The position numbers and the translations under genes were made by a program. The notes beneath the pieces were generated by a model, which did no database searches, had not been told where the DNA came from, and was given only the letters and a program-made list of their open reading frames with translations. Shown one piece after another: positions 4,594 through 41,165 of a DNA stretch of 64,000 bases. Positions within the stretch are counted from its first letter, which is position 1. Each line of letters starts with the position of its first letter. The stretch spans positions 124,001 through 188,000 of the forward strand of contig NZ_JAANBD010000028.1 of assembly GCF_011089885.1 (NCBI RefSeq). The letters run 5' to 3'. The DNA is from Thioalkalivibrio sp. XN279. Its GTDB lineage: Bacteria; Pseudomonadota; Gammaproteobacteria; Steroidobacterales; XN24.

Positions 4594-5643
4594 TCATTCA
4601 GCCGAGGACATGGCTCGACCGGGTCGTGGCGACCTGGCCCGTCGGAACCTTTCGCGGAAATAGCCCAGGGCATAAGGCAGCTTCCGAAGGACCGCATAGA
4701 CGGCATACACAATTGCATCTACCAGGCGCTCTCCGCCTCGAAGCTGCGCCCGAATGATCCTAGCAACGAGAGTCACGGACCCCACGGCCGCCAAGCCCGA
4801 CAGCCACAAGAAGCGCGTGTCCCAGGTGGCGAGAATCGCGCCGGCAAGAGCTACGGTCGGAACAACCGCGACCCAGACAAAGACGCTCCGGATCTCCTTG
4901 CATTGCTGATTGCTCAAGGTATTCGCCAAGACATCGACTTGGATAGCGTCTCCGCGACCTCCCCACACAGCGCGCGTCCACCAATCGCGAAACCCGACCA
5001 GCCCCGAGTCGTGGTCCGCCATTGCAATGGGCAAGCGGACGATCCTGTATCCGGCCTGCCGAACACGGGCGCACAGGTCTGCCTCCTCGCCGGTCAGTAG
5101 CTCGGCGCGGAATCCACCGGCATCCTGGTAGGCTTGGAGACGGGCCAGGAAAATACCCCCGCTGGCCGACACATCGCCGGTCTGTACTGAACGCCATCGG
5201 GCCGCATTGAACCGGTTGTAAACCGATCGTTCCGGGTAGCGCTCCTTCAGCAGCCCACACACGATTCCGACATCGGGGTTTGAATCGAGAAACGCCACTG
5301 CGGCTTGAATCCATACTTGCTCGAGGCTGCAGTCGCCATCGAGGAATTGTATGTAGCGCACCGCCTCGAACTCCGCGAGAAGAGTCTCCACGCCTTCCCG
5401 CCGCGCGCGTGCTGCCGAAAACGGCACGCTACGATCCAACTCGAGAACATGGACACCAAGTCCACTCGCAATCCGCACGCTGTCGTCCGTGGAGCCCGAA
5501 TCCACATAGACGACCACTGTGGCTTGAGCTGGAAGAGACCCCAGGGCATCGGTCAGGTTGTCTGCCTCGTTTTGTCCGATCACGACGATCCCAACCGCAC
5601 TGGGATGACTCATCAATGGGCCATTCCCCCTAGACTCAGCCAA
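4594..5643 (-). CDS. GT2-family glycosyltransferase with C-terminal membrane segments
   Basis: 349 aa family 2 glycosyltransferase and the last gene of the lar operon. The GT-A fold shows VIGQNEADNL near residues 21-30, VDSGSTDDS (47-55) and the metal-binding LDGDCS (D102, D104). The acceptor block TGEEADLCARVRQAGYRIVR follows. About residues 255-305 hold two hydrophobic segments, so it is probably anchored at the inner face of the cytoplasmic membrane. Its start overlaps the larA stop by 8 bases, so translation is probably coupled; a second Met at residue 11 is possible. Its position suggests it acts on, or alongside, the product of the Lar/ATP-grasp genes. Confidence 0.85.
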   Translation of the reverse strand: MAESRGNGPLMSHPSAVGIVVIGQNEADNLTDALGSLPAQATVVVYVDSGSTDDSVRIASGLGVHVLELDRSVPFSAARARREGVETLLAEFEAVRYIQFLDGDCSLEQVWIQAAVAFLDSNPDVGIVCGLLKERYPERSVYNRFNAARWRSVQTGDVSASGGIFLARLQAYQDAGGFRAELLTGEEADLCARVRQAGYRIVRLPIAMADHDSGLVGFRDWWTRAVWGGRGDAIQVDVLANTLSNQQCKEIRSVFVWVAVVPTVALAGAILATWDTRFLWLSGLAAVGSVTLVARIIRAQLRGGERLVDAIVYAVYAVLRKLPYALGYFRERFRRARSPRPGRAMSSAE

Positions 5644-7012
5644 CGTTTCGTGACTCCGATGACGATTGGATCGGAAACAACATCGGCGCGCAACGATAAA
5701 CAGACACCTTCACGCGCTCGTGGGCGCCGACATGTTGCAACAGGTCGCCAACAACACGATCCCAGTCATACTCCACTGGCGCACCGTCGATCAGGGCGGG
5801 CCTGCGCTGGCTCGAGCTCTCGACGAAGGGCACGAACACGATGTGACCTGTGCGCCACTTCAGGCCCGGGTCACGCCGCAGCGCGTTGCGCCTCCGGTTC
5901 AGCCGCAGCCAACGCTTCAGCCGCGTACCGCCGGACAGGCGTTTCACGGCCTGCAGGAAGCGCTCCCGCAGGCTTGTCGCAAGTGGTACGCGTCCGAGCG
6001 GGCAATCACAAAGCGCGGTCACCAGCACACGACATGCTTGCGCCTTGGCGTGCTTGAAGCACCAGCGGCTCTTGCCAAGGACGCACAGCGCGGTGTCCAT
6101 CGGATAGGCATTCGCGATGACGATATCTGCCTCGGGGTCGGCAACCGTGCCGAAGGCCTGCCGCGCATCCGCAACTGCCGCGCGCAACGCACTCCTGAAG
6201 TCGCCACAATGCAGCGCCGCGACCTGCTTGTCCTGGTTGACCAGGCAGTTGATGCTGTAATGCAGCCCAACGAGCTCCGCGAGGTCTTCAAGGTCGCGAC
6301 GAAACGCCGTGTCGACCTCGCCTCCCCGCTGCACCAAGCCATGCCGACGGTGGATGCGCGAGATGGTCTCGAGTGCAAGAATCCCGATCAGGATCTTCGC
6401 ACCCCCGCTGAACGAAACCTCGTCATGCGGGTAAACACCACTGATCGCGATCCTCGAGTCGGCCTCGACGAGCGCCTTGTGTATTTTCACCGGGACGCCA
6501 CTGGGCAACTCGCCGCAGTATTGAAACTGCCTATACTCGCAACAGTCTGGGACAATGACCTCGACATCATAGGGGATCATGCCGAGCTTGCGATCGAGCA
6601 CCCGCCGGTCATCGAACTCGTGGGTACCGACTGCAACGAGTATCTTGATGTTTGACGGCTCGATCCCGATTTCGACGAGCGCGTCCAGGAGCGGGACCAG
6701 GAGTTGGTTCACGGGGGTCGGGCGGGAATGGTCATCGACCACAATCGCGATTTTGCATCGATCCAAAGGCTGATCATGCCCGCCTAGTATCGTACGAACA
6801 CCGCCAATATGCACCCGGATTTCCTCCTCGCTCAGCGCCCGGCGGGGCTGCATATCATGCACGGTGATATCCCAATGGGCGGGCAAGGCAAGGGTGACGA
6901 CCGAATCGGAGCACCAGGACCCGGTCTGGAGCGTGACGGACACTGACCTAGGGTTGTGTGGATGCGGCGACACCGGTTCCTTCATCCTTCCGATTTCATT
7001 CACAAGCCTCAT
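5636..7012 (-). CDS. larA: LarA-family nickel-pincer racemase/epimerase
   Basis: 458 aa LarA (DUF2088) homologue. The family interconverts stereoisomers of 2-hydroxy acids by hydride transfer to a covalently bound nickel-pincer nucleotide. The N-domain signature is VDDHSRPTP (92-100). The residues corresponding to the Ni/pincer ligands and catalytic histidines of Lactobacillus plantarum LarA are all present: H131 in VGTHE, H196 and K206 in YPHDEVSFSGGAK (the same 10-residue spacing), and H221 after ETISRI. Compared with the prototype it has about 30 extra N-terminal residues. The start at 7012 overlaps the upstream ATP-grasp stop by 4 bases (ATGA). The substrate is unknown: lactate, malate, another hydroxy acid or a sugar acid are all possible for this superfamily. 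Confidence 0.88.
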   Translation of the reverse strand: MRLVNEIGRMKEPVSPHPHNPRSVSVTLQTGSWCSDSVVTLALPAHWDITVHDMQPRRALSEEEIRVHIGGVRTILGGHDQPLDRCKIAIVVDDHSRPTPVNQLLVPLLDALVEIGIEPSNIKILVAVGTHEFDDRRVLDRKLGMIPYDVEVIVPDCCEYRQFQYCGELPSGVPVKIHKALVEADSRIAISGVYPHDEVSFSGGAKILIGILALETISRIHRRHGLVQRGGEVDTAFRRDLEDLAELVGLHYSINCLVNQDKQVAALHCGDFRSALRAAVADARQAFGTVADPEADIVIANAYPMDTALCVLGKSRWCFKHAKAQACRVLVTALCDCPLGRVPLATSLRERFLQAVKRLSGGTRLKRWLRLNRRRNALRRDPGLKWRTGHIVFVPFVESSSQRRPALIDGAPVEYDWDRVVGDLLQHVGAHERVKVSVYRCAPMLFPIQSSSESRNVG

Positions 7013-8199
7013 GATCCAGCCGCGAATTTTCGACGGATGGTCGCAGCGAAATCACGGACATAGTTTGCATACCCGACGACGAACGGCAACGGGTCGGTGA
7101 CGGAAAAAAGGCCAAAAGCACGCGATCTCCAGAGACCCGCAAGCTCGCGTGCTGCGGCCGACCACTGCCCGCGCCGGGCTCGCTCCACGGCGCCTCGCAA
7201 CTCGTTGCGCAAGTGCAGCCAGTAGACATCGTCTATCTGTTCCACGACCGCAACCTGCTCGGGCTCCACGCCCGTGAGGTCACGGTAGGCGAGCAAAGCG
7301 AAATTGATGCCACTCGCCGCGAACAGGCTGTTGTACCAAGGCAGCCTGGGGTTGATCTCGATGAGATAAAAGTGCCCGTCCGCACTGCTCTGCTTGAACT
7401 CCACCGAGGCGAAGCCCGTGTAGCCTACGGACTCAAGCAGGCGCGCAGTCTCCTCGACCAGCGGTGGATTCCAGCGGGTGCGCCCGAATGACATCGTTCC
7501 AAACCCCACGGGTTGCTGGTGAAGCTTCTGCACGGTGCAGAACTGCGTCGGCACATCCTTGCCGATGTAGACATTGCACTGGTAAATACCGCTCTCGGGA
7601 CCGGGGATGATCTCCTGCACCAGGGCGTAGGGCACAAGCTCGGGCCAAGTGTCCAGCACCTTCTCGAGGTCCGCTGGGGCGTGAGCAGTGAAATTCTTCC
7701 AGGGAAATGCGACGGTGTAGGAATCGCGCGGCTTGACCAGCGCGGGATAGCCGAATCGGTCCACGAGAGAACGGTCGTCGCTGAACTCGGCCAGGGGCAC
7801 CAAGGATGGCGCACGGATTCCGCAGCGCACCGCAAGGTCGTGGCTCCCGATCTTATCAGTCACCATGAACAGCGTGTCGTCATCCACGATATTGAGAATG
7901 CAGGATTCACTCAACCGGTCCCGGTTCCGCGCGATGAACTCGACAAAAGCATCACTGCTGGCGAACAACGGTACCGGTCCCCGGTCCGGCCTGGACAACG
8001 AGATGATCGCGTTAACGAGGCGAGCCTCGTATTCGCCCCCCTTGGGCACCACGATCGCCGATGCATACTTCGAATGGGCGGCCGGCTCAGAACGGTGGGC
8101 ACATATCACATTGACCAGGATGCCCGCACGCCCTAGCGCTCGCACCTGCCCGAGCCCGTTCACATCACCTCCAAGGACTATGGCGGGACGCAGAGTCAT
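7009..8199 (-). CDS. ATP-grasp ligase (COG3919-like)
   Basis: 396 aa protein with an ATP-grasp fold. It starts with a Rossmann-like segment (IVLGGDVNGLGQVRALGRAG, residues 7-26). It has the ATP-binding lysine region YPALVKPRDS (K156), LVQEIIPGPES (193-203) and the metal-binding ending FYLIEINPRLPWYN (E281, N283, R285). Relatives join a carboxylate to an amine or other nucleophile through an acyl phosphate. It lies between larC and larA with 4-base overlaps on both sides, so it is made together with them. One hypothesis is that it activates the acid whose configuration LarA sets, or attaches it to a sugar or amine. A decayed homologue lies at 14.2-15.0 kb. Confidence 0.85.
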   Translation of the reverse strand: MTLRPAIVLGGDVNGLGQVRALGRAGILVNVICAHRSEPAAHSKYASAIVVPKGGEYEARLVNAIISLSRPDRGPVPLFASSDAFVEFIARNRDRLSESCILNIVDDDTLFMVTDKIGSHDLAVRCGIRAPSLVPLAEFSDDRSLVDRFGYPALVKPRDSYTVAFPWKNFTAHAPADLEKVLDTWPELVPYALVQEIIPGPESGIYQCNVYIGKDVPTQFCTVQKLHQQPVGFGTMSFGRTRWNPPLVEETARLLESVGYTGFASVEFKQSSADGHFYLIEINPRLPWYNSLFAASGINFALLAYRDLTGVEPEQVAVVEQIDDVYWLHLRNELRGAVERARRGQWSAAARELAGLWRSRAFGLFSVTDPLPFVVGYANYVRDFAATIRRKFAAGS

Positions 8200-9401
8200 G
8201 CGCCGTTACCCTTGAGCGCAGCCGTGTATACCTCGAGCACCGCCACCCCGGCCGCCTCGGCCAGCTGGCGACAGGCCTCGAACTCGGGTGTCACCCGGGT
8301 CCGACCGGACGGCAGCTGGACCATCTTAACCGCCACGTTGCCAAACGGCGTGCCGACGATGCCCTGTGACCGCGCCAGTGTGATCCTGCTCACTGCGCTC
8401 ATCCGCACGCCGATGGTGCTCGTCGACTCGAGGAGCAGGTTCGCAATGTCCTCGACATACGAACGATCCACGAGTATCTCCAGCACATGCCCGGGGCGCC
8501 CTTTCTTCATGATGACCGGGTAGATCGTCACGTCCCGCGCACCGTGGTCCAGCAGGTGCGCAACTAGGTCAGCGCCGAGCAATTCGCCCGGCAGGTCATC
8601 GAGATTGCAGCGCAACTCCATGATAGTATCCGACCGCGACTCGTTGAACGCCCCGCCGCGGGTCTCGGCCAGGCGCAAGCGCAAGACATTAGGCCGCTCC
8701 GCGATATCACGGCACCCGCCGCCATAGGCGGACGCCATGACCGTGTGCGCCGGCCAATCGAACTCCACCCCGAGCTCGGCCAGGATCAGCGCGCCGGTGG
8801 GAGTGGTCCACTCTCCACCGATCTTACCCGTCACTGTCGGCATGCCGTGCAACAGCCGCTCCGTCGCGGGTGCCGGCACCGGAAGCCCACCGTGCGAAGC
8901 CTGCGTCATCCCGCTGCCCACACAGATCGGCGTGCTGAATGCCGCCCCGACACCCAGCCGCTCAATGCACAGCGCTGCAGCCACGATGTCCATGATGGAG
9001 TCCAGTGCGCCAATCTCGTGGAAATGAACCTCCTCGAGGGCGATGCCGTGGACCCCGGCCTCGACGGCGCCCAGCCGCTCGAACATCCGACTCGCACGAC
9101 CCTTTATTGCCTGATCGAGCGTCGACTGGTCGATCATCTCCAGGATCTCGGCCAGCGAACGGTGCTTATCTGCTCCACCCTCGTCCTCGAGAAAGTCTCC
9201 TCCCCAAAGCACTTCGAACCGCCTGCACAGGATGTGCGACCGGCGGGCATCCGAAAAACGGCAATTCACCCCGCGAAGCCCGAGGACTCCCGGCAACGAC
9301 AGGACCTCCTGCTCGCATCCGGTCAACGCCGAAGCTGCGGCGACAAACATGTCGCCGCTGATCCCGCTGTACGGCTCAACGAGCAGCGCGCGCACGCTCA
9401 T
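8196..9401 (-). CDS. larC: LarC, nickel insertion protein for the pincer cofactor
   Basis: LarC (DUF111) homologue, 401 aa from the chosen start. LarC is a CTP-dependent enzyme that inserts nickel into the pyridinium-3,5-bisthiocarboxylic acid mononucleotide. The diagnostic N-terminus is EPYSGISGDMF (9-19), and the C-terminal half has NLDDLPGELLGADLV followed by IMKKGRPGHVLEILV. The frame also extends upstream to 9482, but homology begins at the ATG at 9401, which overlaps the end of larB by 26 bases. In L. plantarum LarC needs a programmed frameshift; here it is one continuous frame. Its stop overlaps the ATP-grasp start (ATGA). Confidence 0.92.
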   Translation of the reverse strand: MSVRALLVEPYSGISGDMFVAAASALTGCEQEVLSLPGVLGLRGVNCRFSDARRSHILCRRFEVLWGGDFLEDEGGADKHRSLAEILEMIDQSTLDQAIKGRASRMFERLGAVEAGVHGIALEEVHFHEIGALDSIMDIVAAALCIERLGVGAAFSTPICVGSGMTQASHGGLPVPAPATERLLHGMPTVTGKIGGEWTTPTGALILAELGVEFDWPAHTVMASAYGGGCRDIAERPNVLRLRLAETRGGAFNESRSDTIMELRCNLDDLPGELLGADLVAHLLDHGARDVTIYPVIMKKGRPGHVLEILVDRSYVEDIANLLLESTSTIGVRMSAVSRITLARSQGIVGTPFGNVAVKMVQLPSGRTRVTPEFEACRQLAEAAGVAVLEVYTAALKGNGA

Positions 9402-10053
9402 CCGCTGCCAGTTGATGAAGAATGCGCGCCGCAGAGGCCGCTGCCCCGCAGCCGTTGTCGATGTTGGTGACGGTGACGCCACTCGCGCAACTCGCCAGCG
9501 CCGAGTGCAGGGCCGCCCGGCCGCCCTCCGCCACGCCGTAGCCCACGCTCGTCGGAACGGCGATCACGGGCTGGGGGAAAAGGCCGCCGACGACCGACGG
9601 CAGCGCGCCCTCGAAACCAGCGAAACAGATGATCACCTGGCAGCGCGCCAGTGACTCCTGGTGTGCAAGCAGGCGATGAATACCTGCCACCCCACAATCC
9701 CCGATTTCCTCGGCGGTGCCGCCAAGGAACTCAAACGTGACGATGCTCTCCCGCACCACCGGCAGATCGGAACTGCCGCCGTAAACAAAAGCCACCCTTC
9801 CAGGGATCGCCTGCGGCGCGCTGCGAATCATGCGGAAGGTCCTGGAGACTGGATCGTAGATTCCGTCGATCCCGGTGACTTGGCCAGGTTCACATCGCGT
9901 GACGAGCATGTTCGCTCCGCGAGCCTCGTGCAGCCGCGCGATCTCGACGAGCTGTGCGGGTGACTTGCCCGCACCGTAGATGATCTCAGGCAGTCCGATA
10001 CGCTCGGCACGGGCGAAATCGAGGTCGATATCGGCATGAAGCATGGCCTGCAT
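9376..10053 (-). CDS. larB: LarB, pyridinium carboxylase/hydrolase of the pincer pathway
   Basis: LarB homologue (225 aa), related to AIR carboxylase PurE at its C-terminus. LarB carboxylates nicotinic acid adenine dinucleotide and cleaves it to the dicarboxylated mononucleotide, the first step of pincer synthesis. Motifs: ARAERIGLPEIIYGAGKS near the N-terminus, VYGGSSDLPVVRES, FEGALPSVVGG, VIAVPTSVGYG and ASGVTVTNIDNGCGAA. An upstream extension of the frame to 10263 is antisense-like Arg/Gly-rich sequence overlapping larE. The ATG at 10053 overlaps the larE stop by one base (TGATG) and is preferred. Confidence 0.92.
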   Translation of the reverse strand: MQAMLHADIDLDFARAERIGLPEIIYGAGKSPAQLVEIARLHEARGANMLVTRCEPGQVTGIDGIYDPVSRTFRMIRSAPQAIPGRVAFVYGGSSDLPVVRESIVTFEFLGGTAEEIGDCGVAGIHRLLAHQESLARCQVIICFAGFEGALPSVVGGLFPQPVIAVPTSVGYGVAEGGRAALHSALASCASGVTVTNIDNGCGAAASAARILHQLAADERARAAR

Positions 10054-10877
10054 CAGTCGATTCCAATAGCGCGATTCAGCTTGCCTGACACCAGGCCCTC
10101 CGGGTCCATTTCCACCTCCGAAAACCCAAAATCGAGAAACGCCCGGCATAGGTCCGGCCACAGTTTCGCCAGATCGTGAATTCGAACCTGCGGGACTTCC
10201 ACGCGGGCGAGACTGCCGTGATGCCGGACCCTGCAGACCGCGAAGCCTCTCTCGAGCAGCCACCTCTCGGCGGCCTCTATCTGCGCGAGTTTGCCACGGG
10301 TCACCGACTCACCGTAAGGGATCCTCGAGCTCAAGCAGGGACTGGCGGGCTTGTCCCAGACCTCAAGACCATTCGCACGGGCCAGCTCGCGGACCAGCGA
10401 CTTGCCGATTCCGCACTCGAGCAGGGGATGACGGACGGAGTGATGGCGAGCCGCAGCCAGTCCTGGGCGATAGTCGCCCAGGTCGTCCAAGTTTGCGCCA
10501 CTGCAAATCCACCAGTGCCCAGCCATGGCGGACAAGCCGGCCGCAATGCTCGTGTAAAGAGATGTCTTGCAGTGGTAGCAGCGATCCGGGGGATTGCTCG
10601 CGTAGTTCCGATCATCGATCTCGCCGGGATTCACTAGCACCAACGGGATGTCGTGCCGAGAACAAAACCACCGCGCCACGGCGAGGTCGCGGCGCTTGAG
10701 ACTCGGCGAGTCCCCTGTCCAGGCCGCGCATCGGTCCCGACCCAGCACCTTGCGGGCCCAGAAGGCTACGAGTGCCGAGTCCACCCCCCCTGAAAAGGCT
10801 ACTGCAACCCTTGTTGCCCCGCCAAACCAGGCGTCAAGCTGTTGCATCACTTCAAGATGGACCTCAGGACGCGACAT
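10053..10877 (-). CDS. larE: LarE, ATP-dependent sulfur transferase of the pincer pathway
   Basis: 274 aa LarE, a PP-loop ATPase that converts the two carboxylates of the pincer precursor to thiocarboxylates. The PP-loop is FSGGVDSALVAF (residues 28-39). C181 in DKPASPCLSSRIPYG matches the sulfur-donating cysteine of L. plantarum LarE (C176). A further pair, C100 and C103 (DRCYHCK), is present. From memory of the family, a three-cysteine set occurs in LarE forms that carry a [4Fe-4S] cluster, so this protein may use a cluster rather than destroying its own cysteine; that is inference. It is the first gene of the operon. An inverted repeat CCGGAG-N9-CTCCGG (10889-10909) lies in its leader. Confidence 0.92.
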   Translation of the reverse strand: MSRPEVHLEVMQQLDAWFGGATRVAVAFSGGVDSALVAFWARKVLGRDRCAAWTGDSPSLKRRDLAVARWFCSRHDIPLVLVNPGEIDDRNYASNPPDRCYHCKTSLYTSIAAGLSAMAGHWWICSGANLDDLGDYRPGLAAARHHSVRHPLLECGIGKSLVRELARANGLEVWDKPASPCLSSRIPYGESVTRGKLAQIEAAERWLLERGFAVCRVRHHGSLARVEVPQVRIHDLAKLWPDLCRAFLDFGFSEVEMDPEGLVSGKLNRAIGID

Positions 10878-11589: not shown

Positions 11590-12744
11590 ATGCATGGAAA
11601 ATACGCAACTTGGACGAAATTAATACCCGCTTACCTCTACCGTCAGGTAGTCCGGCAGAGGATCAAAAACCTCGTGGAGTGGCCAGTGGCGCCGTGCCCA
11701 GGAGAGGGATGCACAATAATAATTGGGATGTGTTCACGACTGCCAAACGTCCTGCTCGGAAATCTTCGACTTTTGGCCAAACTAAATTGGCCCGACTTGA
11801 CTAAAGTCATTGTGGTCGTTGATGGGCCTGCGGGATGCATCGACCCTGCCATCGAATCCCAAGCGACAGCAGTATTGTCGGGGACCCCGTTGAAGTTCTT
11901 TTATTACTCTGCGCGTCAATCTGCCATCGCCGAAAAACTATGTCTTCCCTATCTGTATTCGTGGCTATCTTGGAGTATTGGAATAAGCCATGCCACCACG
12001 CGCCATATCCTGTTACATGACTATGATGCGCTACTTCTCGATAATTCCATTACAAACCGCTTCTCACTATTCAAAGAATCCAAAGCGAAGGTGCAGGGAA
12101 TTTCATGGTACAACGTTAATGGGATTTGCAGGGACGACCGACTTGCAACCACGTTTGAAGCATTTGTGGATTTGGAATGGCTTCTGGGATTCCCTCCAAT
12201 AAAAATGTTCAATCAGATCGGTTACAAGAGCGGACACACACGAGACTACGATACGCTCCTAGAACTTCAACACAAACATCTTGAACCCGAGAAGCGCGCA
12301 ATCGTACCAATGAACGAAGAGTCCTTGGTGCACCCGACGCAGATGATTCATCAATACACCATGTTTCGGCGCGACCCACATAAAGCGATGCCCTGTGGCT
12401 CGTTACCGATGATTCCGTTTTTCGAATGGCTATCCGGCGCAGACTCTGCAATTCGCGCCGTTACCCAAAGAATTAATTCGTCAGCCAATCCCGCAGCGGT
12501 CGACTTTTTCGGTGATGGACGCATGCTCAATTTCAGCTTGCTCCACATTGACTCCGTCGACTGGAACTTAAAGCAAATGGTTAGGGTGTGCGCTCGCCTG
12601 AAGATTGCCCCGTACAAGCCCCTAATCGATTACGGGCATAGTTTATATCGCTTGGTTTCCGCACCAAACGACCGTATCTGGCGAGGCGACTTCACCGAAG
12701 AACAGCGACGCTGGATCAATGCCGTAATGCCCCGATCTGCATAA
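11590..12744 (+). CDS. Putative glycosyltransferase-like protein, unknown specificity
   Basis: 384 aa soluble protein of no family I recognise with certainty. It looks like a GT-A-type transferase: a beta strand and loop TIIIGMCSRLPN, then LTKVIVVVDGP (possible UDP-binding loop), and ATTRHILLHDYDALLLD with a DYD motif where GT-A enzymes hold metal. Base composition is clearly more AT-rich than the lar operon or the rfb genes, suggesting a separate origin. A GT4 gene follows 13 bases downstream on the same strand, so the two probably form one unit. Function is inferred mainly from neighbours. Confidence 0.6.
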   Translation: MHGKYATWTKLIPAYLYRQVVRQRIKNLVEWPVAPCPGEGCTIIIGMCSRLPNVLLGNLRLLAKLNWPDLTKVIVVVDGPAGCIDPAIESQATAVLSGTPLKFFYYSARQSAIAEKLCLPYLYSWLSWSIGISHATTRHILLHDYDALLLDNSITNRFSLFKESKAKVQGISWYNVNGICRDDRLATTFEAFVDLEWLLGFPPIKMFNQIGYKSGHTRDYDTLLELQHKHLEPEKRAIVPMNEESLVHPTQMIHQYTMFRRDPHKAMPCGSLPMIPFFEWLSGADSAIRAVTQRINSSANPAAVDFFGDGRMLNFSLLHIDSVDWNLKQMVRVCARLKIAPYKPLIDYGHSLYRLVSAPNDRIWRGDFTEEQRRWINAVMPRSA

Positions 12745-12757
12745 TTGATTTTGCCAC

Positions 12758-13927
12758 ATGAAGATTTTGTTCGTAACCTACCATATGCCTTTTCCACACG
12801 TAGCTGGAAGTATGCAACGCACAGCTTTGCTTATCGATGCTTTAAGGCGTAATCACCAGGTCGATATTTTCCTGCTTCGCGGTCGTGGGCAGGCTGAGTT
12901 TCTTGCAGACAACGGATACCATGTAGCAGGATTTTCACCTTTACCGGAATTCCCGCTTTGGAAGAAAGCACTTGATCGGATGTTTAAGCACATAGAATAT
13001 GAATACCGATCGAACCACAGAATCTTCAGCGCCCTAAAACAAGTCTTCGATGGAGGTGGATATGACCTCGTTATTGGACGCTATCTCAAGGCCAGCGAAG
13101 TTGCCGGGGTGTCATCGCTTGCCCCCTCTCTGATTGATCTTGACGATTTGGACACGTCAGTGTTGGCGAATCGCCTTTCGTCGCCAGGCACTCCTCGTTG
13201 GCAACGACCTTTAGTCCGCTGGAAACTTCGGCAGCTGCAGGTCGAGTTCGATAAGTGGGTGAACCGCTATACCAGGTGCTGGGTTTCTAGCGAAAACGAC
13301 TTGGCTCTGTTGAAACGCGATGGTGTAGACGTAGTCCCCAATATCGCGTGGCAGATGGATCCAAGGCCACCATATCAGCCATCGCCCGATACCAAGCAAC
13401 TCTTATGGGTTGGTTCGTTTAACCACCCTGTCAATCTGGCGGGCCTAAATCGTTTCATAGAGCAATGCTGGCCGGCAATTCATCAAGCCGAGCCAACAGC
13501 CGAGCTTTGTGTTGTCGGCTCGTCATTACCAAAAACACATCATAAAAAGTGGTCGAGAATCCCCGGCATCAACGTCTTGGGATTTGTCGAGAACCTCGAT
13601 AGACATTATATGGAATCAACGTGTTCGATCGTACCGCTTTGGGATGGGGCGGGCACAAAGATTAAAGTCATCGAAAGCCTTTCCTATGGTCGGACTGCCT
13701 TAGTCACTGCTCATTCTGCCCGGGGTTATGAGAACACACTTAAACACAATGAATCTTTATGGGTGGCAAATAATGAGCAAGATCTCATCGAGGGAGCCCT
13801 GTTATTGCTGAACGGGAGAGATTTGCGGCACATGCTTGAGAAGAACGGCAGGTCCATCGTTGAACAACTGCATAATATGTCAGCTTTCCAACGGCAGGTT
13901 GATGCTTCAATTGCTAGATTTCAATAA
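12758..13927 (+). CDS. GT4-family glycosyltransferase
   Basis: 389 aa two-domain GT-B glycosyltransferase. The N-terminus MKILFVTYHMPFPHVAGSMQ is typical of GT4 enzymes that bind an acceptor lipid sugar. The C-terminal donor domain holds KQLLWVGSFNHPVNLAGL, then INVLGFVENLDRHY, and the nucleotide-sugar region IVPLWDGAGTKIKVIESLSY with the family E. It resembles the sugar transferases found with exosortase A loci, but the exact subfamily is uncertain. AT-rich like the gene before it; no terminator follows before the decay zone at 14 kb. Confidence 0.82.
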   Translation: MKILFVTYHMPFPHVAGSMQRTALLIDALRRNHQVDIFLLRGRGQAEFLADNGYHVAGFSPLPEFPLWKKALDRMFKHIEYEYRSNHRIFSALKQVFDGGGYDLVIGRYLKASEVAGVSSLAPSLIDLDDLDTSVLANRLSSPGTPRWQRPLVRWKLRQLQVEFDKWVNRYTRCWVSSENDLALLKRDGVDVVPNIAWQMDPRPPYQPSPDTKQLLWVGSFNHPVNLAGLNRFIEQCWPAIHQAEPTAELCVVGSSLPKTHHKKWSRIPGINVLGFVENLDRHYMESTCSIVPLWDGAGTKIKVIESLSYGRTALVTAHSARGYENTLKHNESLWVANNEQDLIEGALLLLNGRDLRHMLEKNGRSIVEQLHNMSAFQRQVDASIARFQ

Positions 13928-15047: not shown

Positions 15048-16562
15048 TTACGGCATTCGGTGTGGATGCACGCCCGGTCGTCGGGAAATCGAACCCCGAG
15101 TCTCTGCTTTAGGTCGCCCTTCATGCGCCACCGCATGTTGGTACCGCCCGGCGAGCGCACCGGCCACCAGCCAGAAAATCGGATTGCGGAAATCATTTGG
15201 TATCAGGTAGATAAGTGACAGCGCCATAATCATGGCAAGCGCGGCGGTGGCGGGCTCCACAGAGCCTGGACTGCGCCGCTCCAATCGCCAGATCATCAAG
15301 AGAGGCAGCGCCATGAGGCCGAACTGGGCGATGTACCCAAACCAGCCATAGGTACCGATCACAATCACCCAGGCCCCGTCGGTCACGCTCAAATCCGCAC
15401 CCGTCCTTTCATCATAAAGACGGTTGCGTCCCCACCCCCCCCATCCGACGAGGGGCTTCTCCTGCGCCCGCGCAAAGAGCGCATCTTCATGCCCAAACCG
15501 AAATTGCAGGGATTCGGCACGGCGAGGATCTATTTCGGCTGCGACATTCACAATGGTTTCTATAGGGAATAGGTCGGCGCCGCGCAACAAGGGAAACGTG
15601 AGGAAAGTCAACGCGACCAGCGCCGACACAAGCATCTGCTTGCGGACTTTAAACAACAAGACCACGGGCAAGAACAGCAAGGCCAGCATTTCCGCGGCCA
15701 AATTACGGGAAAGAAAGAGCGCCAGCCCGATCCACAATGTCGTGACGACCCATGGAAATCTGCCAAATCGCGTCTTTGCCGCCTCCCGCCATCGCTCGGA
15801 GGCCGCAACCATCGCCGTCGCCAGAAACAACCCGACGGCGAGGCCGTGCTCGAGGAACACGATGGGACGAAAGCCCCCGCCCCGTATGTGTTGTACCCAG
15901 CTGTGCTGAAAGAATCCATATATCCATATGTGAAGCCGGGGACTCATCCGAACCTCAAAAAGAACCAGGAACGCGTAGAGCGCACCGGATATCGCGAGCG
16001 CAGTGACCAGGTAGCGGTGCTGGTCCACAGCCGCCAGGAACCTCATGCCAAGCAAAAAAGGCACAAGTGCGATGAATAGATTGACCGACATCGACACGCC
16101 GTCATAGGGTCGTAATCCCGCGATGAACCGGGGACCCGCCATCACGCTATCGCCGTTCTGCAGAACTGTCAGGAAAGGAGAAAGTAGCACCGCGAGGAAA
16201 AAAATGAAGAAAACCCGAGTACCAGTTGCCCCGTTGGACAGGCCAGGCGCCTTCGATGAACGAGAATTTCCCTCAGGCCCTAGGGCGGAACGCTTCGCGC
16301 GGCCGTTAATGGTCGGCTTTTTTTGTGTCCGCTTTACAAGTGTGAAGCATAAAACAAGGGCCACGAGAGCCGTTACCGAGGCTTTGTCCAAGGGCGGCAC
16401 CATCGGAAGGTCAACTGCGACCCCTGATGGAAGCAGTAAGTAGCCGCCGAGAATAGAAAGTATGAGTGCCTTATATGGCGGTAGTGCCTTAAAAAAGGCC
16501 AACATGGCTAAAGGCCAAGCAAAGAGCACTAGGAATGCAAAGGAATTCGGCATTTGGCGCAA
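15048..16562 (-). CDS. O-antigen ligase/polymerase-like membrane protein (Wzy type)
   Basis: 504 aa polytopic inner-membrane protein with about ten hydrophobic segments and a long loop in the second half holding RFGHEDALFARAQEKPLVGW then GGWGRN, typical of O-antigen polymerase/ligase (Wzy_C-like) proteins. It would polymerise repeat units on undecaprenyl diphosphate at the outer face of the membrane. A hydrophilic stretch at about residues 80-112 (KRTQKKPTINGRAKRS) separates the first helices from the rest. The upstream side is the IS256 remnant. It is the only polymerase candidate seen in the window. Confidence 0.8.
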   Translation of the reverse strand: MRQMPNSFAFLVLFAWPLAMLAFFKALPPYKALILSILGGYLLLPSGVAVDLPMVPPLDKASVTALVALVLCFTLVKRTQKKPTINGRAKRSALGPEGNSRSSKAPGLSNGATGTRVFFIFFLAVLLSPFLTVLQNGDSVMAGPRFIAGLRPYDGVSMSVNLFIALVPFLLGMRFLAAVDQHRYLVTALAISGALYAFLVLFEVRMSPRLHIWIYGFFQHSWVQHIRGGGFRPIVFLEHGLAVGLFLATAMVAASERWREAAKTRFGRFPWVVTTLWIGLALFLSRNLAAEMLALLFLPVVLLFKVRKQMLVSALVALTFLTFPLLRGADLFPIETIVNVAAEIDPRRAESLQFRFGHEDALFARAQEKPLVGWGGWGRNRLYDERTGADLSVTDGAWVIVIGTYGWFGYIAQFGLMALPLLMIWRLERRSPGSVEPATAALAMIMALSLIYLIPNDFRNPIFWLVAGALAGRYQHAVAHEGRPKAETRGSISRRPGVHPHRMP

Positions 16563-21299: not shown

Positions 21300-21896
21300 A
21301 TGCTCAGCCATATCCTCAAATTTCCATACCGCGTCTGGAACCGAGTCATCTGGGCCTATCGGGGCCGTTTCCAAAGTGACCATCACGTATTTGTCCGCAA
21401 CGGTCCTTACCCGGTCGAGACTCGCCCCGAGATTAAATTTTTCCGCTTTGCGCACTTCGCGGACGTTCCGGCATTTGTGCGAGAGGCAATTGTAGAGAAT
21501 CAAGGACACGGGGCACTCGAAACCGACGCTCGGGAATTGAAAGATCACTCGCTCATGTGGGTCGCGATGTTCGACGATACCGTAGCTGGCGTATTGCATT
21601 CACGTCGAGGAAAGCATTTTCTCAACTGGTTCGTGCCGCTCCGGGACGAAGATATTGTCTTTTTCCGCGTCCGCACTTACCCACAATTCCGTGGACGGGG
21701 CATCTGTCCGTCGATGTACCGCTACATCATGCACCAGGAACTTCCTGACGACGCCCGAGCATTCGCCGATTGTGCGATCTACAATAAGTCATCGCGACGA
21801 AGCTTGGAAAAAGCCGGCTTCCAGACAATCGCCATCGCTAAACCTATCACGCGCGAATGGGCCCTAAAGGGAAAGACCGATTCCAGAGTTCGCTGA
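21300..21896 (+). CDS. GNAT-family acetyltransferase
   Basis: 198 aa protein with the acetyl-CoA-binding motif VRTYPQFRGRGICPSMYRYI (R-G-R-G-I-C loop followed by a helix) and the later IYNKSSRRSLEKAGFQTIA block typical of GNAT N-acetyltransferases. The substrate is not evident; context suggests an amino sugar or nucleotide sugar. Its 3' end overlaps the convergent SDR gene by 33 bases. Several Met codons near the N-terminus make the start uncertain. Confidence 0.78.
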   Translation: MLSHILKFPYRVWNRVIWAYRGRFQSDHHVFVRNGPYPVETRPEIKFFRFAHFADVPAFVREAIVENQGHGALETDARELKDHSLMWVAMFDDTVAGVLHSRRGKHFLNWFVPLRDEDIVFFRVRTYPQFRGRGICPSMYRYIMHQELPDDARAFADCAIYNKSSRRSLEKAGFQTIAIAKPITREWALKGKTDSRVR

Positions 21897-22874
21897 ACGC
21901 TGCAATCCATTATCCCAAGAGCGTTTTGTAGTCCAGTTGATCTCTTGGATGGCTACAGCATTCCCAAACCGCATGGGCTTGCACCTTGCATGGAGCCGGC
22001 TCGACACCAGCAGCCCGGGCAACTTCGCACTACCTCGAAAGAACACCCTGTTGAACAGCGACGCTGTCCCCGCCATGACGCGCAATAAGGCCCAGGGCAC
22101 CGGAACAATGCGAGCGCCCTGCCCCGCTTCCTCCCGGAACTGCTTCAAATAAGCCCAGTGTGTCGGCAGATCGTCGTCCACAAGATTCAGCGTAAGCCCA
22201 TCTGGTGAGCCACCATGGTCCACGGCCAGCGCTACAGCCTCGGCGCAATTCTCGACATAGCACAGTGGAACCGTACTGAAGGGGGCGGTGCAAACCCACC
22301 AGCGATCATTGACAGGAAACCCCACCCGCCCATTCCAAAGATTGTCCCGCCCGAAAATAACCCCGGGCCGCAGCACGACCAGGGACCATTCATTCGCCGC
22401 AGCAGCACGCCGCACGAGTTGTTCCTGTAGTAACTTGGTCCGGCAATACTCGTCGCGGACTTCCGGATCCTGCGCTAACGGGGAGTCCTCCGCGATCCGG
22501 CTCCTCGCCGGCCGGCGCAGGTATTCGTAGACGGAAAAGGAACTGATGAGGACGATTCTATTAACTCGCGCCTCGTGCATTCGATCGATGAGGTTTTCCG
22601 TGGCTATCACGGTCCCGCCCAACTGATCGTAGAAGTCCCCGCTCTTGGCGGCCGCCAGGTGCGCCACGCAGTCCATGCCGATGCACAGATTTTGCAAACT
22701 CTCGCGCGACCTGAGATCGCCGCGATAAACCTCAATCGAAGACTGCTCCAACCAATCCTCGGGCACGGATGACCCGGGCCGGACCATGGCACGCACCGTG
22801 TGACCGCGCGCAACCAGGGCGCTGACGACGTAGCGCCCCAGGAACCCCCCTGCTCCCGTCACCAGCACCTTCAC
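21864..22874 (-). CDS. NAD-dependent epimerase/dehydratase (extended SDR)
   Basis: 336 aa extended short-chain dehydrogenase. Rossmann motif VTGAGGFLG (5-13), strand HLAAAKSG, active-site region LISSFSVYEYL and the catalytic pair in EYCRTKLL (YxxxK). It likely modifies a nucleotide sugar or lipid-linked sugar; which one cannot be told. Its start overlaps the stop of the Gfo/Idh/MocA gene by 4 bases (ATGA), so the two are translated together and may act in sequence on the same sugar. Confidence 0.85.
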   Translation of the reverse strand: MKVLVTGAGGFLGRYVVSALVARGHTVRAMVRPGSSVPEDWLEQSSIEVYRGDLRSRESLQNLCIGMDCVAHLAAAKSGDFYDQLGGTVIATENLIDRMHEARVNRIVLISSFSVYEYLRRPARSRIAEDSPLAQDPEVRDEYCRTKLLQEQLVRRAAAANEWSLVVLRPGVIFGRDNLWNGRVGFPVNDRWWVCTAPFSTVPLCYVENCAEAVALAVDHGGSPDGLTLNLVDDDLPTHWAYLKQFREEAGQGARIVPVPWALLRVMAGTASLFNRVFFRGSAKLPGLLVSSRLHARCKPMRFGNAVAIQEINWTTKRSWDNGLQRSANSGIGLSL

Positions 22875-23986
22875 AGCCTATTCTCCTCAGCCAGTAGCCG
22901 GTCGATCAGTCGACTCGTCCGGTCCATCTGCTGGTATGTAACCGGCAGCTCATTGCCACTGCGCAAGGACTGGTACGTCTCCGCCAGGAACGCCTGCAAG
23001 CCCTCGTATGCGGTGCGGTTGCGGATCTTTTTCCAGATGCTGCCGAAACCCGCACCGACGAGACTACCGGCGTTCGCCATGGCATTCATCAGCGGAGACA
23101 GGTGCTGGCCGCCCGGGCGTTGTTTCACCAGCATGACCGTGGGATGGAATAATTCTGCGCTCGCCACTCCTTGTGAGCCTCGCAGGGTTATGGAGAAGCC
23201 ATCGGGCCACTGGTGAGCGGAGAACCTGATCCGGCCGTGGGCCGGACCCGAGAGCACGAGCGCGTCTAGGGCATCGTATTTGAAAAGATCCCCACCACCA
23301 TGATTCCGCCACGCCGCGGCAATCTCCATCGCATCACGCTCATCCACCGGCAGGAAGTTAAGCAAAAGGTAGGCGAGGTGAGAAATGAACTCATGCACCA
23401 CGCCCGCCGGCAGGCAGTGGCTCGGATGCGGGAGGTTCTGGTCGGCGTAGCGCCCCCCGCCGCGGATGCCAAGGACCATCCGGACTTCGACTTCCTCGAG
23501 TGTTCCGATCTCACCCTGCGCGACAATGGCCTCGAGCCTGCGAATCGGCGCGTTGAATCGGTAATTATGGTTCTCGACCAGCCTGAGACTTCTGGACTGT
23601 GCCAGGTCCCACAGGTCGTTGAAGCCCTCGTTGGACAGGGCAATAGGTTTTTCGACGATGACGTGACATCCCCGCTCCAGGCAGTCCCGCACGATCCGAT
23701 CGTGCGTGGCGGGTGGCGTAAGGACGTGCACCACATCAACCTCGTCCTGCTCGAGCATAGCGCGGTAGTCCGTGTGCCATCCGGCCACCCCAAACCGCCC
23801 GGCAGTGTACTCGGCCAACGCTGGCGAGAGATCACAGATTCCCTGCAACCGGACATCCCCAGCCTGTTGCAGTCCAAGCAGATGCTGTTCGGCGATCTTG
23901 CCGCCCCCGATCAGGGCCACGCGAGGTCGGGGCAATGGCCTGAAGTTGCCGGTGGAATCACCCAAGCCAATCTCCTGTTCAACCAT
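22871..23986 (-). CDS. Gfo/Idh/MocA-family oxidoreductase
   Basis: 371 aa NAD(P)-dependent sugar oxidoreductase. The N-terminal dinucleotide site is VALIGGGKIAEQHL, and the catalytic lysine region is HVIVEKPIALSNEGF. The C-terminal half is the usual alpha/beta substrate domain (VHEFISHLAYLLLNFLPV). It may act as a UDP-sugar 3-dehydrogenase or similar in making an amino or keto sugar, together with the adjacent SDR and the DegT aminotransferase upstream in the operon. Its start overlaps the upstream GNAT-like gene by 8 bases. Confidence 0.88.
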   Translation of the reverse strand: MVEQEIGLGDSTGNFRPLPRPRVALIGGGKIAEQHLLGLQQAGDVRLQGICDLSPALAEYTAGRFGVAGWHTDYRAMLEQDEVDVVHVLTPPATHDRIVRDCLERGCHVIVEKPIALSNEGFNDLWDLAQSRSLRLVENHNYRFNAPIRRLEAIVAQGEIGTLEEVEVRMVLGIRGGGRYADQNLPHPSHCLPAGVVHEFISHLAYLLLNFLPVDERDAMEIAAAWRNHGGGDLFKYDALDALVLSGPAHGRIRFSAHQWPDGFSITLRGSQGVASAELFHPTVMLVKQRPGGQHLSPLMNAMANAGSLVGAGFGSIWKKIRNRTAYEGLQAFLAETYQSLRSGNELPVTYQQMDRTSRLIDRLLAEENRL

Positions 23987-25052
23987 AGCGGCGTCGGCGC
24001 TCCTGCTCTTTCAGCCAGCGGCCGGGCGCCTGGAGCAGCGGCCGCAGCGCGGATTGCCGTGCCCATGCCTCTGAGCGCGTGCGCAGTTCATGAATACTGT
24101 TGATGATCGAAGGCCGCGTTGCGATCCCTTCTGCCACGGGAATCGATCCGGACATGAAATTTTCCTTGTATGGCGCCATGCCCTTACCTAGGTCTATATG
24201 GGCGAGGCCATCCTCGCACGCATGCTGGATCATGTGCACCAGCAGGATCAGCCCCGGGGCATATTGGCGGAACTCGTCATCATAGGCGGGGAACCAGGAA
24301 TGCCACACGGTGCGGGAGCGCATGGCAAAGTGCACGGCAGCCAGCCTGTCACCAACGTATAGAGCGGACAGCGTGCCGCCAAACTCTTGGCTGTCCTGTT
24401 CATGGATACGCTTTATCAGCTCAACCGTCCAGGGCAGCGCGAAAAAGTCTACTACACCTGTTGCCTGGCACTGCTCACGTTTCCAGCGCACCATGGCGTC
24501 GAACACGGTCGGTTCACGCGTATTGGAGACGTAACGGATCGGCCCACGCTCCCTCTCCAGCTTGCGCATGCGCCGAAGCGTGTCCTGAAGGTGCTTGCGC
24601 TGGCTCTTCGTCCTGTCCGCCTCGTAGGCCTCGTACCCGTCGATAGTCTCGATGATCGGCGAGGGGTCGACCTGCCGTATATAGGGCTTCCACTCCCCCT
24701 GCCCGGCCACCAGGTGATCGAATTCCCAACGCACCAGGCCAGAACCGCGCAATAAATCCAGCACCGTCCATTCCGCATCTCGCTCGACAACCACGCCGTG
24801 ATGGTCCGACAGTTTCAGTCCCGCAGGGCGACCGACACCTCCACGGCCATAATGAAAAGGGAAGAAGCCCACAACGCGGCCATAGTCCTCGAGCAGACAG
24901 ATTCTCAGGTCGTCGCGGACGGCCGCGAGGGCCTGCGCAAACTCTGGACGGAAGTATGGACTCGCAAAGATCGTGCCTGTCGCCTGGATCGCGCTCCAAC
25001 GTGATGCCAGTGCGTTATCCAGCTCCCGTGTGAGGATAACCGTGTACTTCAT
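23979..25052 (-). CDS. GNAT/CelD-like acyltransferase of an exopolysaccharide locus
   Basis: Protein of the GNAT_6/CelD (COG5653) type, 357 aa from the chosen start. Recognisable blocks are TRELDNALASRWSAIQATGT at the N-terminus, the Lys/Arg-rich linker DRTKSQRKHLQDTLRRMRKL, GGTLSALYVGDRLAAVHFAM, and the C-terminal HIDLGKGMAPYKENFMSGSI. These proteins are common in cellulose and exosortase-linked loci and are thought to acylate polysaccharide or lipid-linked sugars. The frame runs upstream to 25193 through the end of the FemAB gene, but homology starts at ATG 25052, leaving a 19-base gap. Confidence 0.8.
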   Translation of the reverse strand: MKYTVILTRELDNALASRWSAIQATGTIFASPYFRPEFAQALAAVRDDLRICLLEDYGRVVGFFPFHYGRGGVGRPAGLKLSDHHGVVVERDAEWTVLDLLRGSGLVRWEFDHLVAGQGEWKPYIRQVDPSPIIETIDGYEAYEADRTKSQRKHLQDTLRRMRKLERERGPIRYVSNTREPTVFDAMVRWKREQCQATGVVDFFALPWTVELIKRIHEQDSQEFGGTLSALYVGDRLAAVHFAMRSRTVWHSWFPAYDDEFRQYAPGLILLVHMIQHACEDGLAHIDLGKGMAPYKENFMSGSIPVAEGIATRPSIINSIHELRTRSEAWARQSALRPLLQAPGRWLKEQERRRRYG

Positions 25053-25071
25053 CGGGTAGAAACCCAGCGGC

Positions 25072-26178
25072 TCACCATGGCATTGTCTCGTGTAGCCCAA
25101 GACGCCGCCCTGCCCTAATGACGAGGTTGCGTAAAGTCGGCATGGACCATGCGACCTGGGTAGCGGTGGAACGTACAGACGCCAAGGGGCCATAGTACTT
25201 CCACATGGTGACAGGCCAGCGGAAATGCTCCGGTGCTATGCGGGTCTTGAAGCGAGTCAGGCCACCGGTGCTCGTTTCGGAAATTCCCAGCAGGTCATAG
25301 AACCGGCAGCCGTGGTCGCGCGCCCACTGCATGGCCTTAAAATGCAGCAGGTACCCGGCCATGAGCTTGCGGACATCGTCGCTCCGATCGACGCCGCCCC
25401 ATCCGTACAACATATGCTCACCGACGACAGTGTTGAAAAGCGCGGCGACCGGACGGTTGTCATGATACGCAACGAACTGCTGCACGCGCCCAGACGGTCC
25501 GAACACATCCAGCAGGTACTCGAAGTACGCCCGATCGAACATCCCGAATCCCTTGTGCGCCGCGCTCATCGAATACAGAGCATAGAACTCGTCCAATGAG
25601 TCCCGGCTGCCAGTTCTTACTTCGACCCCCAAGCGTCGGGCGAGGCGAATATTGTATCGTCCCTTCGGTTTCATCCGGGCCAGCACATCTTGATCAGAGC
25701 CGGAGACCTCGATCCGCGAAGTCAAGTGCTCGCCCCACCAGTCTGTCCGTGACTCGAAGCCTTTGGCAACCAGCACTTCTCGAGCAGCATGCTGCTGCGC
25801 AAAGGTCTCGACACGGAGTATCGAGATCCGATGCTCACGAGCAAAACCGTCGAGTTGGTCCATCACCTGGGCCAGCAGGCCGGCATCGTCGTTCAGGCTC
25901 AACGGGCCGCGCTGCACGATGCCGATACGGCCTATCGGCGTGCTTCGCCACATTACCTGCGCGCCGCCGACGACCTCTCCACCCTGCTTCAGGATGACCC
26001 GGTCGGAATCGTAACCGTATGCAGACCGCAGCTGCCCGTACAGGCTGGATTGTTCGTGGTGACCGAAGGGATGCCGGCCAAGAAATGCGTCCCACGCGGC
26101 TTCCCGTCCGCCCTTGGGTCGCGACAGGTCGACATCGCGAGAGGGAGCTTTGTTGGCCGCTGCCGTCGTCATTGACAC
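25072..26178 (-). CDS. FemAB-like protein of the PEP-CTERM/exosortase system
   Basis: 368 aa FemAB/MurM-like tandem-GNAT protein, the type regularly found with exosortase A. Blocks: GHHEQSSLYGQLRSAYGYDS near the N-terminus, MKPKGRYNIRLARRLGVEVR at the domain linker, YALYSMSAAHKGFGMFDRAY, and the C-terminal RFYDLLGISETSTGGLTRFK. FemAB relatives use aminoacyl-tRNA to add amino acids to peptidoglycan; the function of the exosortase-linked branch is not established, although an amino-acid or acyl decoration of the polysaccharide is plausible. It precedes the GNAT/CelD-like gene in the same leftward unit. Confidence 0.85.
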   Translation of the reverse strand: MSMTTAAANKAPSRDVDLSRPKGGREAAWDAFLGRHPFGHHEQSSLYGQLRSAYGYDSDRVILKQGGEVVGGAQVMWRSTPIGRIGIVQRGPLSLNDDAGLLAQVMDQLDGFAREHRISILRVETFAQQHAAREVLVAKGFESRTDWWGEHLTSRIEVSGSDQDVLARMKPKGRYNIRLARRLGVEVRTGSRDSLDEFYALYSMSAAHKGFGMFDRAYFEYLLDVFGPSGRVQQFVAYHDNRPVAALFNTVVGEHMLYGWGGVDRSDDVRKLMAGYLLHFKAMQWARDHGCRFYDLLGISETSTGGLTRFKTRIAPEHFRWPVTMWKYYGPLASVRSTATQVAWSMPTLRNLVIRAGRRLGLHETMPW

Positions 26179-26217
26179 AGGCTAATCGATGATCGCATCG
26201 GGTGGTCTGGAATCCGG

Positions 26218-27342: not shown

Positions 27343-28286
27343 CGACCGCGATCCTCCGGCTGCGCCGGCTGTTTGAGTATTGGCGCACGCCATCTCAGTC
27401 CGAGATTTGGATAAGGACGTCCGCGAAGCCGCTCGATCAGGGCGCGCAGGCTCATCGCACACAGCTCGCCAAGCTCCGCAGCAACCGCGGGCACCCGGCC
27501 ATGATGCTTTACGAGGTAATAAAATCGACTCTCGAAAAAATGCTTGGCGATGGCTCCCTGGACCAGGCTTTCACCAGTAACTCCGGCCGACGCGCCAGCG
27601 ACGTGTCGGCACGTCGCCTCGCCCACCGTCCAGATCTCCCAATCGGCCTCGGCGGCACGTTTACACAAGTCCGTTTCTTCGAAATAGAGGAAAAAACGCG
27701 GATCGAATCCGCGGAGCTCATCGATCATCGGGCGGCGGATCAACATGATGGAGCCGCAGATCCAGTTAGTGCGCATCGGCGATTCACCCGGCTCCACGGA
27801 TCTCATTCTCGGGCCAGCAAGCCTCGGCAGAATGGGTTTGAGCATGATGCTCACGGGGGTGAGCATGGCTCCTGACAGCTGCAAGCGTCCGGACCCCTCC
27901 ACGACCGCCGGCCCGCATAAACCGGCCTTCTCGTGGGCGTCCATGAACCTGACCAACGTGTCGAGCGCCTCCACCTCGACGACCGCATCTGGGTTCATCA
28001 CCAGCAGATACGGCGTATTCGCCCGCTCGAAGCCGAGGTTGCAACCACGTCCGTAGCCGAGATTCCCTCCGCTGTGGACCAGCGTCGCCCATGGATGATT
28101 GCGCGCCACCTGCTCCGGCGTGCCATCGCTGCTGGCATTGTCCACTACGATCGCTTCGAGCATGCCGGCTTCGTAGCCAAGCCGCAACGCCCTTAAAGCC
28201 GCGTCAATGGTATCGGATGACTCGTAGGTCACGATGACCGCAGTCACCCTGGGGGCTGCTTCGCTCAACGACCCAGCCTCCGCCAA
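27330..28286 (-). CDS. GT2-family glycosyltransferase (rhamnosyltransferase-like)
   Basis: 318 aa soluble family 2 glycosyltransferase. Motifs: VTAVIVTYESSDTIDAALRA, EAIVVDNASSDGTPE, SGGNLGYGRGCNLG and LLVMNPDAVVEV (metal/donor loop), and the acceptor-side block GFDPRFFLYFEETDLCKRAA. The pattern NPD with F-EE-DLC is that of dTDP-rhamnosyl- and galactosyltransferases. With rfbBACD in the window, rhamnose transfer is plausible but not proven. It overlaps the upstream deacetylase by 22 bases. Confidence 0.87.
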   Translation of the reverse strand: MAEAGSLSEAAPRVTAVIVTYESSDTIDAALRALRLGYEAGMLEAIVVDNASSDGTPEQVARNHPWATLVHSGGNLGYGRGCNLGFERANTPYLLVMNPDAVVEVEALDTLVRFMDAHEKAGLCGPAVVEGSGRLQLSGAMLTPVSIMLKPILPRLAGPRMRSVEPGESPMRTNWICGSIMLIRRPMIDELRGFDPRFFLYFEETDLCKRAAEADWEIWTVGEATCRHVAGASAGVTGESLVQGAIAKHFFESRFYYLVKHHGRVPAVAAELGELCAMSLRALIERLRGRPYPNLGLRWRAPILKQPAQPEDRGRCVD

Positions 28287-41129: not shown

Positions 41130-41133
41130 CCGA

Positions 41134-41159: not shown

Positions 41160-41165
41160 CTGTCC

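Follow-up and report, generated by a model that had tools for sequence, protein, structure and literature searches.

A complete nickel-pincer (Lar) gene set lies inside an exosortase/exopolysaccharide locus of Thioalkalivibrio sp. XN279, at positions 4594-10877 of the window, that is, the whole stretch of 64,000 nucleotides analysed here (bases 124001-188000 of contig 28; genome of 3.13 Mb in 29 contigs, 99.9% complete). Six consecutive genes on the minus strand, larE, larB, larC, an ATP-grasp gene, larA and a gene for a GT2 glycosyltransferase, make up this run. We consider it rather probable that they form a biosynthetic Lar operon for a secreted or surface polysaccharide, in which LarA determines the configuration at C2 of a small 2-hydroxy acid and the ATP-grasp enzyme then links this acid to an amino group of the glycan. 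Gene context gives good support to a connection between LarA and glycan synthesis, since this LarA falls outside the lactate racemases, the association recurs in Thioalkalivibrio sp. XN8, a sister species, and in three other phyla, and control LarAs lack a comparable enrichment of glycosyltransferase genes. A preliminary description of this DNA had proposed the inversion of an acid destined for the surface glycan; the glycan part of that proposal is supported by the gene context, while from the sequences we infer the activity of LarA, the acid, its attachment through an amide bond, the product and all the steps that follow LarA.

Gene content of the lar run and features of its proteins

All six genes of the preliminary description are present on the minus strand where it had placed them. 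The set for the synthesis of the nickel-pincer nucleotide (NPN) is indeed complete, with LarE, LarB and LarC all passing the curated NCBIfam cut-offs of NPN biosynthesis families. LarE (10053..10877), the ATP-dependent sacrificial sulfur transferase, scored 270 bits with TIGR00268 (cut-off 150); LarB (9376..10053, likely start ATG 10053), the carboxylase/hydrolase, 231 bits with NF033503 (cut-off 175); and LarC (8196..9401, likely start ATG 9401), the nickel insertase, was above cut-off with TIGR00299 and NF052512 (176 bits versus 90). They are followed by the ATP-grasp gene (7009..8199), by larA (5636..7012), which codes for a predicted NPN-dependent 2-hydroxy acid epimerase or racemase of a distinct branch, and finally by the GT2 gene (PF00535, Glycos_transf_2, 46 bits versus 23.3), that can start at an ATG (4594..5613) or at an upstream TTG (4594..5643). 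The overlaps of 1 to 26 bases described before hold for four junctions (larE/larB 1 base, larB/larC 26, larC/ATP-grasp 4 and ATP-grasp/larA 4); at the fifth, larA and the GT2 gene overlap by 8 bases only if the TTG is used, and are otherwise separated by 22 bases. Chance or mis-annotation of the lar genes was ruled out, as LarE, LarB, LarC and LarA match curated models, and the window LarA is the single Lar_N match of the whole genome (E 0.001). IS3-type transposase genes adjoin the GT2 end of the operon, with apparent decayed integrase fragments beyond (3287-4433 and 819-1690). A recent chance insertion of the lar genes through the IS3-type elements near 3287-4433 was considered and is disfavoured, because the GC content of the lar block is ordinary (0.61-0.65, versus 0.62 for the window) and XN8 keeps the run in full.

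The LarA protein belongs to the LarA superfamily, with a Lar_N domain well above the Pfam cut-off (103 bits versus 23.3). In its predicted model (mean predicted local distance difference test score 79, poor at residues 336-360 and weak across much of the C-terminal domain) all 19 Foldseek matches at E <= 0.001 were members of the LarA family. It shares with the lactate racemase LarA of L. plantarum (PDB 5HUQ, 6C1W) the fold, the accompanying cofactor-making genes and the residues for cofactor binding and catalysis, at an identity of ~20% in the structure alignment. Actually, the three histidines and the lysine that had been noticed as binding or working with the nickel pincer are kept, H131, H196, H221 and K206 aligning with H108, H174, H200 and K184 of the L. 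plantarum enzyme, and so are R97 (R75 in L. plantarum), D94 and K314. The substrate pocket, in contrast, is different: positions F175, F176, Y294 and Q295 of the L. plantarum protein are D, E, C and V in the window LarA. The acidic pair D197/E198, where lactate racemases have F-F, is present in both the window and XN8 proteins and hints at a polar substrate. Residues 175 and 176 have been given a role in substrate specificity in the available part of PMC11770544, which also lists E, V, A and H at LarA1 positions 175, 176, 358 and 359 for the D-gluconate 2-epimerase (GntE). The window LarA has D and E at the first two; the last two were left unassigned because the C-terminal domain has diverged. 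The best NCBIfam profiles were those of the malate racemases LarAH5 and LarAH6 (Mar1, Mar2), yet the scores were about one third of the equivalog cut-offs (152 bits versus 462 and 147 versus 500, respectively), and the nickel-dependent lactate racemase model NF033504 gave 114 bits versus 460. Similarly, none of five LarAs scored, from the glycan-type and Poribacteria-type branches (the window and the loci L018, L024, L026 and L048 of the scan presented below), exceeded a curated racemase cut-off.

Sequence matches of the ATP-grasp protein to Pfam and NCBIfam are weak. Its predicted model (mean score 82) matched PurK, PylC, biotin carboxylases and an L-amino-acid ligase with Foldseek, placing it in the carboxylate-amine ligase fold, and the protein has the motif E281-x-N283, which we take to be a functional motif of the ATP-grasp fold. 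We propose from this modelled fold that it may be a ligase of the carboxylate-amine type, and a candidate for joining the hydroxy acid to an amine.

Recurrence of LarA beside glycan genes

Lar-type matches are rare among the relatives of XN279. They were found in 4 of 369 genomes of the class (E 1e-10), 2 of 147 relatives (E 1e-5) and 5 of 398 genomes of the phylum, its own genome included each time and the samples overlapping. The whole run is conserved in XN8 at 55-79% identity (LarE 71%, LarB 79%, LarC 55%, ATP-grasp 63%, LarA 68% and GT2 61%), with the GT2 gene at the same place, gaps of 0-9 bases and overlaps of up to 20. Furthermore, the gene for a putative polymerase, 64% identical to the product of window positions 15048-16562, is there on the strand of larE and stops 4 bases ahead of it, which makes a run of seven genes in XN8. 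A third member of the genus, genome G370, carries PrsR (82%) and PrsT together with a diverged exosortase, and has neither larA nor a counterpart of the putative polymerase. As XN8 keeps the lar run with the polymerase and G370 has PrsR and PrsT without both, the lar run is apparently one of the variable parts of the locus that are specific to the glycan. The use of G370 as an empty-site comparison was dropped, its locus being too diverged.

To look further afield we scanned genome contigs and kept the best 80 of 100 confirmed relatives, which gave 79 distinct loci; the peptide patterns of the scan were narrow, so other members were missed, and many loci were cut by contig ends. Eight of the 79 loci (L017-L024, L017 being that of XN8) had one or more ATP-grasps of the window type, or of the type of the Chromatiales metagenome-assembled genome G035; neither type was found in the other 71, many of them truncated. 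Five of the eight have the order ComA, ComB, ATP-grasp, LarA and second ATP-grasp (L019 from Zixiibacteriota, L021 from Desulfobacteraceae and L022-L024 from Nitrospirota), with one to three further genes between some members, and are surrounded by glycosyltransferase, FemAB, acyltransferase, Wzy_C, AMP-binding-like or Wzx genes. The Pfam assignments cover ComA of L019, L021 and L024 as well as ComB of L019, L021 and L023; the remainder are close homologs, and ComB of L024 is present in the DNA sequence although it was missed among the open reading frames picked. The window ATP-grasp is homologous to the first one of these clusters (24% identity over 378 amino acids, E 5e-22), and a search of PDB sequences with the Nitrospira ATP-grasp gave no match. 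In the Chromatiales genome (L018) the system is split, with ComA-ComB-ATP-grasp in a polysaccharide locus and LarA-LarA-ATP-grasp-LarC-LarE-LarB on a different contig. The tandem LarA homologs of that genome (contig 85, 424-3064) have Q-H and Q-N at the position of the second catalytic histidine; the Q-N copy may thus have a single catalytic histidine. Actually, all eight LarAs of this clade, from seven genomes, have Q at the position of H174 followed by H (once N) at the next. ComA was detected in 16 of 245 Nitrospirota genomes, including 3 of 3 with a LarA of this clade; G891, to which L020 belongs, gave no ComA match. LarC, the one cofactor-synthesis protein searched for genome-wide in the relatives, was present in seven of the eight genomes behind L017-L024.

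Sulfolactate is a 2-hydroxy acid, the class of substrates of LarA enzymes. ComA and ComB, of the coenzyme M pathway, convert phosphoenolpyruvate and sulfite to (R)-sulfolactate (PMC5695019, in the part available). The acid handled by the ComAB-linked clade is probably sulfolactate, and the clusters suggest the existence of sulfolactate-bearing polysaccharides.

In Nitrospirota, 15 of the 18 LarA matches belonged to branches other than the ComAB clade. The order GT4-GT4-GT2-LarA-PMT was found in all 11 loci L136-L146, which are close relatives and not independent events. GT2 and LarA share a 4-base overlap in L140, and also in L135, where a gene for an ABC-2 type exporter lies close by. In L135-L149 neither type of ATP-grasp was in view, nor was ComAB. 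We compared by Pfam the 83 neighbouring open reading frames (ORFs; within ~7 kb) of seven glycan-type LarAs with 110 neighbours of ten control LarAs. Glycos_transf_2 and Glyco_transf_4 (8 each), FemAB (4) and ComA (3) were found in the former. Among the controls PhyH, LarC, transport components and Gfo/Idh were the commonest, and no glycosyltransferase family appeared among the 25 commonest of 147, although families seen only once or twice could lie below that rank. Both sets were chosen by hand. The first comprised the window, L017, L019, L021, L024, L135 and L140, the last two picked after a first look at their neighbours, and left out L018, L020, L022, L023, L136-L139 and L141-L149; the controls were five LarAs of the lactate racemase group (all five that the class and phylum samples contained outside the window and G035 branches) and five of the 71 Poribacteria-type loci (L025-L095). 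Many of these last, from Poribacteria, Caldilineaceae and Latescibacteria, have LarA-type genes, often as tandem pairs, that are perhaps catabolic, given that PhyH and Gfo/Idh are the leading families of the mixed control set, to which this group contributed five loci. The recurrence of larA beside polysaccharide genes, which the preliminary description had put forward for checking, was thus found in XN8 and in three other phyla, and glycosyltransferases were not enriched to a similar degree around the ten controls.

In three trees the window and XN8 LarAs formed their own branch (100/100), which joined the ComAB-linked clade with supports of 93/89, 96/89 and 86/87, and in all of them the lactate racemases were a separate group. 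Mar2, a long branch, fell among the lactate racemases and away from the window branch in the first two. The second tree took in 10 of the 15 extra Nitrospirota LarAs, and the third, used for the constraint test, left out Mar2, SAR, L147, L148 and L149.

A possible route to a hydroxyacyl-decorated glycan and the alternatives

The synthesis of the cofactor by LarE, LarB and LarC is established for these families (PMC7583248, in the part available), and in XN279 they would build the nickel-pincer nucleotide. LarA would bind the pincer through K206 and H221 and invert C2 of a small 2-hydroxy acid, with the hydride passing to the cofactor and H131/H196 acting as acid/base pair. The ATP-grasp enzyme would then activate the acid as an acyl phosphate and join it to an amine, the likeliest being that of an amino sugar or of an amino-acid side chain of the repeat unit; an amino sugar acceptor would fit the aminotransferase, Gfo/Idh and GNAT genes found nearby. 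The GT2 enzyme, the putative polymerase and the products of the exosortase locus would build and export the chain.

Several observations weigh against this biosynthetic operon as we propose it. The grouping of the window LarA with the ComAB-linked clade is moderate and involves long branches, and when the window and XN8 sequences were constrained with the lactate racemases the grouping was not rejected (log difference 5.0, p-AU 0.065 in the approximately unbiased test), so the tree places LarA outside that clade, as the preliminary description requires, without formally rejecting the alternative. The identity between the window and ComAB-linked ATP-grasps is only ~24%, and glycan-linked LarAs do not always come with an ATP-grasp, because the GT2-linked ones of Nitrospirota (L135-L146) have none in view; the more distant L147-L149 have none of the glycosyltransferase partners. 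Genome G889 (87% complete) has ComA-ComB-ATP-grasp with no LarA match, and the Zixiibacteriota genome with a ComAB-LarA cluster gave no LarC match. In addition, no match to ComA (PF02679) was found in the window genome, in XN8 or in G370, so that the sulfolactate clue, which is drawn from a sister clade, may not apply here. A direct supply of sulfolactate by ComA/ComB in XN279 was rejected for this absence.

The window LarA could still racemise 3-sulfolactate coming from another route, as its closest clade, with moderate support, is ComAB-linked. We find this distinctly improbable given the lack of ComA in the three genomes and a pocket with H-D-E in place of the Q-H-T of the ComAB-linked LarAs; a partial PF04029 (ComB-like) match of XN279, at 668587-669045 of contig 28, is far from and unlinked to the lar genes and is also present in larA-free relatives. 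A somewhat different possibility is that LarA acts on a polyhydroxylated sugar acid derived from an aldonate or uronate, giving rise to a rare sugar of the glycan, with the ATP-grasp serving another building block. The D197/E198 pair of the window and XN8 proteins, to be compared with E-V in gluconate 2-epimerases (PMC11770544, available part), the sugar-nucleotide genes all around LarA and the GT2-linked Nitrospirota LarAs without ATP-grasp in view speak for it. The 4-base overlap of the ATP-grasp gene with larA, and the repeated presence of ATP-grasps next to the LarAs of the ComAB clade, for which sulfolactate is the likely acid, make us regard the sugar acid as rather unlikely. Finally, LarA might be a common lactate or malate racemase from central metabolism that lies by chance in the exopolysaccharide locus: all the catalytic and cofactor residues are retained, the top profiles are malate racemases and the constrained tree is tolerated. 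Scores so far under all three racemase cut-offs, the replacement of Y294 and Q295 by C and V, the conservation in XN8 of the operon together with the putative polymerase and GT2, and the glycan neighbours of LarA in other phyla make this improbable.

Going beyond the window, we advance only tentatively the idea of a whole branch of nickel-pincer enzymes dedicated to glycans, setting the stereochemistry of hydroxyacyl decorations that ATP-grasp ligases would attach to surface polysaccharides, in which one sub-branch with a shifted second catalytic histidine (Q-H for H) would be a single-enzyme 3-sulfolactate racemase leading to a sulfonated polysaccharide.

The exosortase locus, known Lar systems and significance

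The exosortase/exopolysaccharide setting of the lar run, with glycosyltransferases and surface-polysaccharide genes as neighbours, had been recognised before and stands confirmed by profile searches. The exosortase and XrtA-type core (34630..52256) includes the exosortase, Rml genes, a WcaJ-type transferase, export genes, PrsT, PrsR and PrsK; PrsT, PrsK, PrsR, the XrtA-type chain-length protein and the export protein are all above cut-offs. The exosortase itself (34630-36168) passed the general exosortase model (128 bits versus 105.6) and the EpsI model, and scored below the cut-off of the XrtA model (151 bits versus 208). Glycosyltransferases, deacetylases and rhamnose genes complete the setting, many genes of the locus being named from matches below cut-off. 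The putative polymerase (15048..16562, minus strand) is a membrane protein with no Pfam or NCBIfam family match, which we label as Wzy-like by inference. Between it and larE there are, on the plus strand, an unassigned protein and a GT4 gene (11590..13927, GC 0.49), with no counterpart there in XN8. A set of sugar-modification genes common to XN8 (21864..27462, minus strand; SDR, Gfo/Idh, GNAT, FemAB-like and DegT-like aminotransferase, mostly from matches below curated cut-offs) is perhaps for an amino sugar.

Lar operons for lactate utilisation have a lactate permease or LarR beside the lar genes. As noticed in the preliminary description, neither was found among the scanned proteins of the window (the longer ORFs, some searched against Pfam or NCBIfam alone), and the operon differs from that of L. 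plantarum also in having the ATP-grasp and GT2 genes. The single-histidine LarASp and LarABw are similar to the window protein in belonging to a distant LarA branch with a suggested link to carbohydrates; they differ in having the second catalytic histidine replaced by Asn, where the window LarA retains H196, and, in the available part of the source, in neighbours of central sugar metabolism and sugar transport and not of glycan export (PMC12393405). The sulfolactate racemase described in the available part of PMC12421959 is a pair of dehydrogenases, SlcC/ComC, and not a LarA. No paper joining LarA to glycan loci or to ComA/ComB was found in the literature searched (mostly titles and abstracts, with subscription journals thinly covered), nor one linking sulfolactate with a polysaccharide (titles and abstracts), and wording on polysaccharides or glycosyltransferases is absent from the main texts of PMC7583248 and PMC11770544. 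A glycan-linked biosynthetic Lar operon had therefore not been described before in the literature searched.

Overall, the known nickel-pincer enzymes are a small group of racemases and epimerases that act on soluble hydroxy acids. A glycan-dedicated branch, if true, would give this cofactor a biosynthetic role and explain in part why environmental bacteria such as Nitrospirota have it. It would also predict new polysaccharide substituents, chiral hydroxy acids and possibly sulfolactate, for which the ComAB-linked clusters name a concrete candidate substrate.

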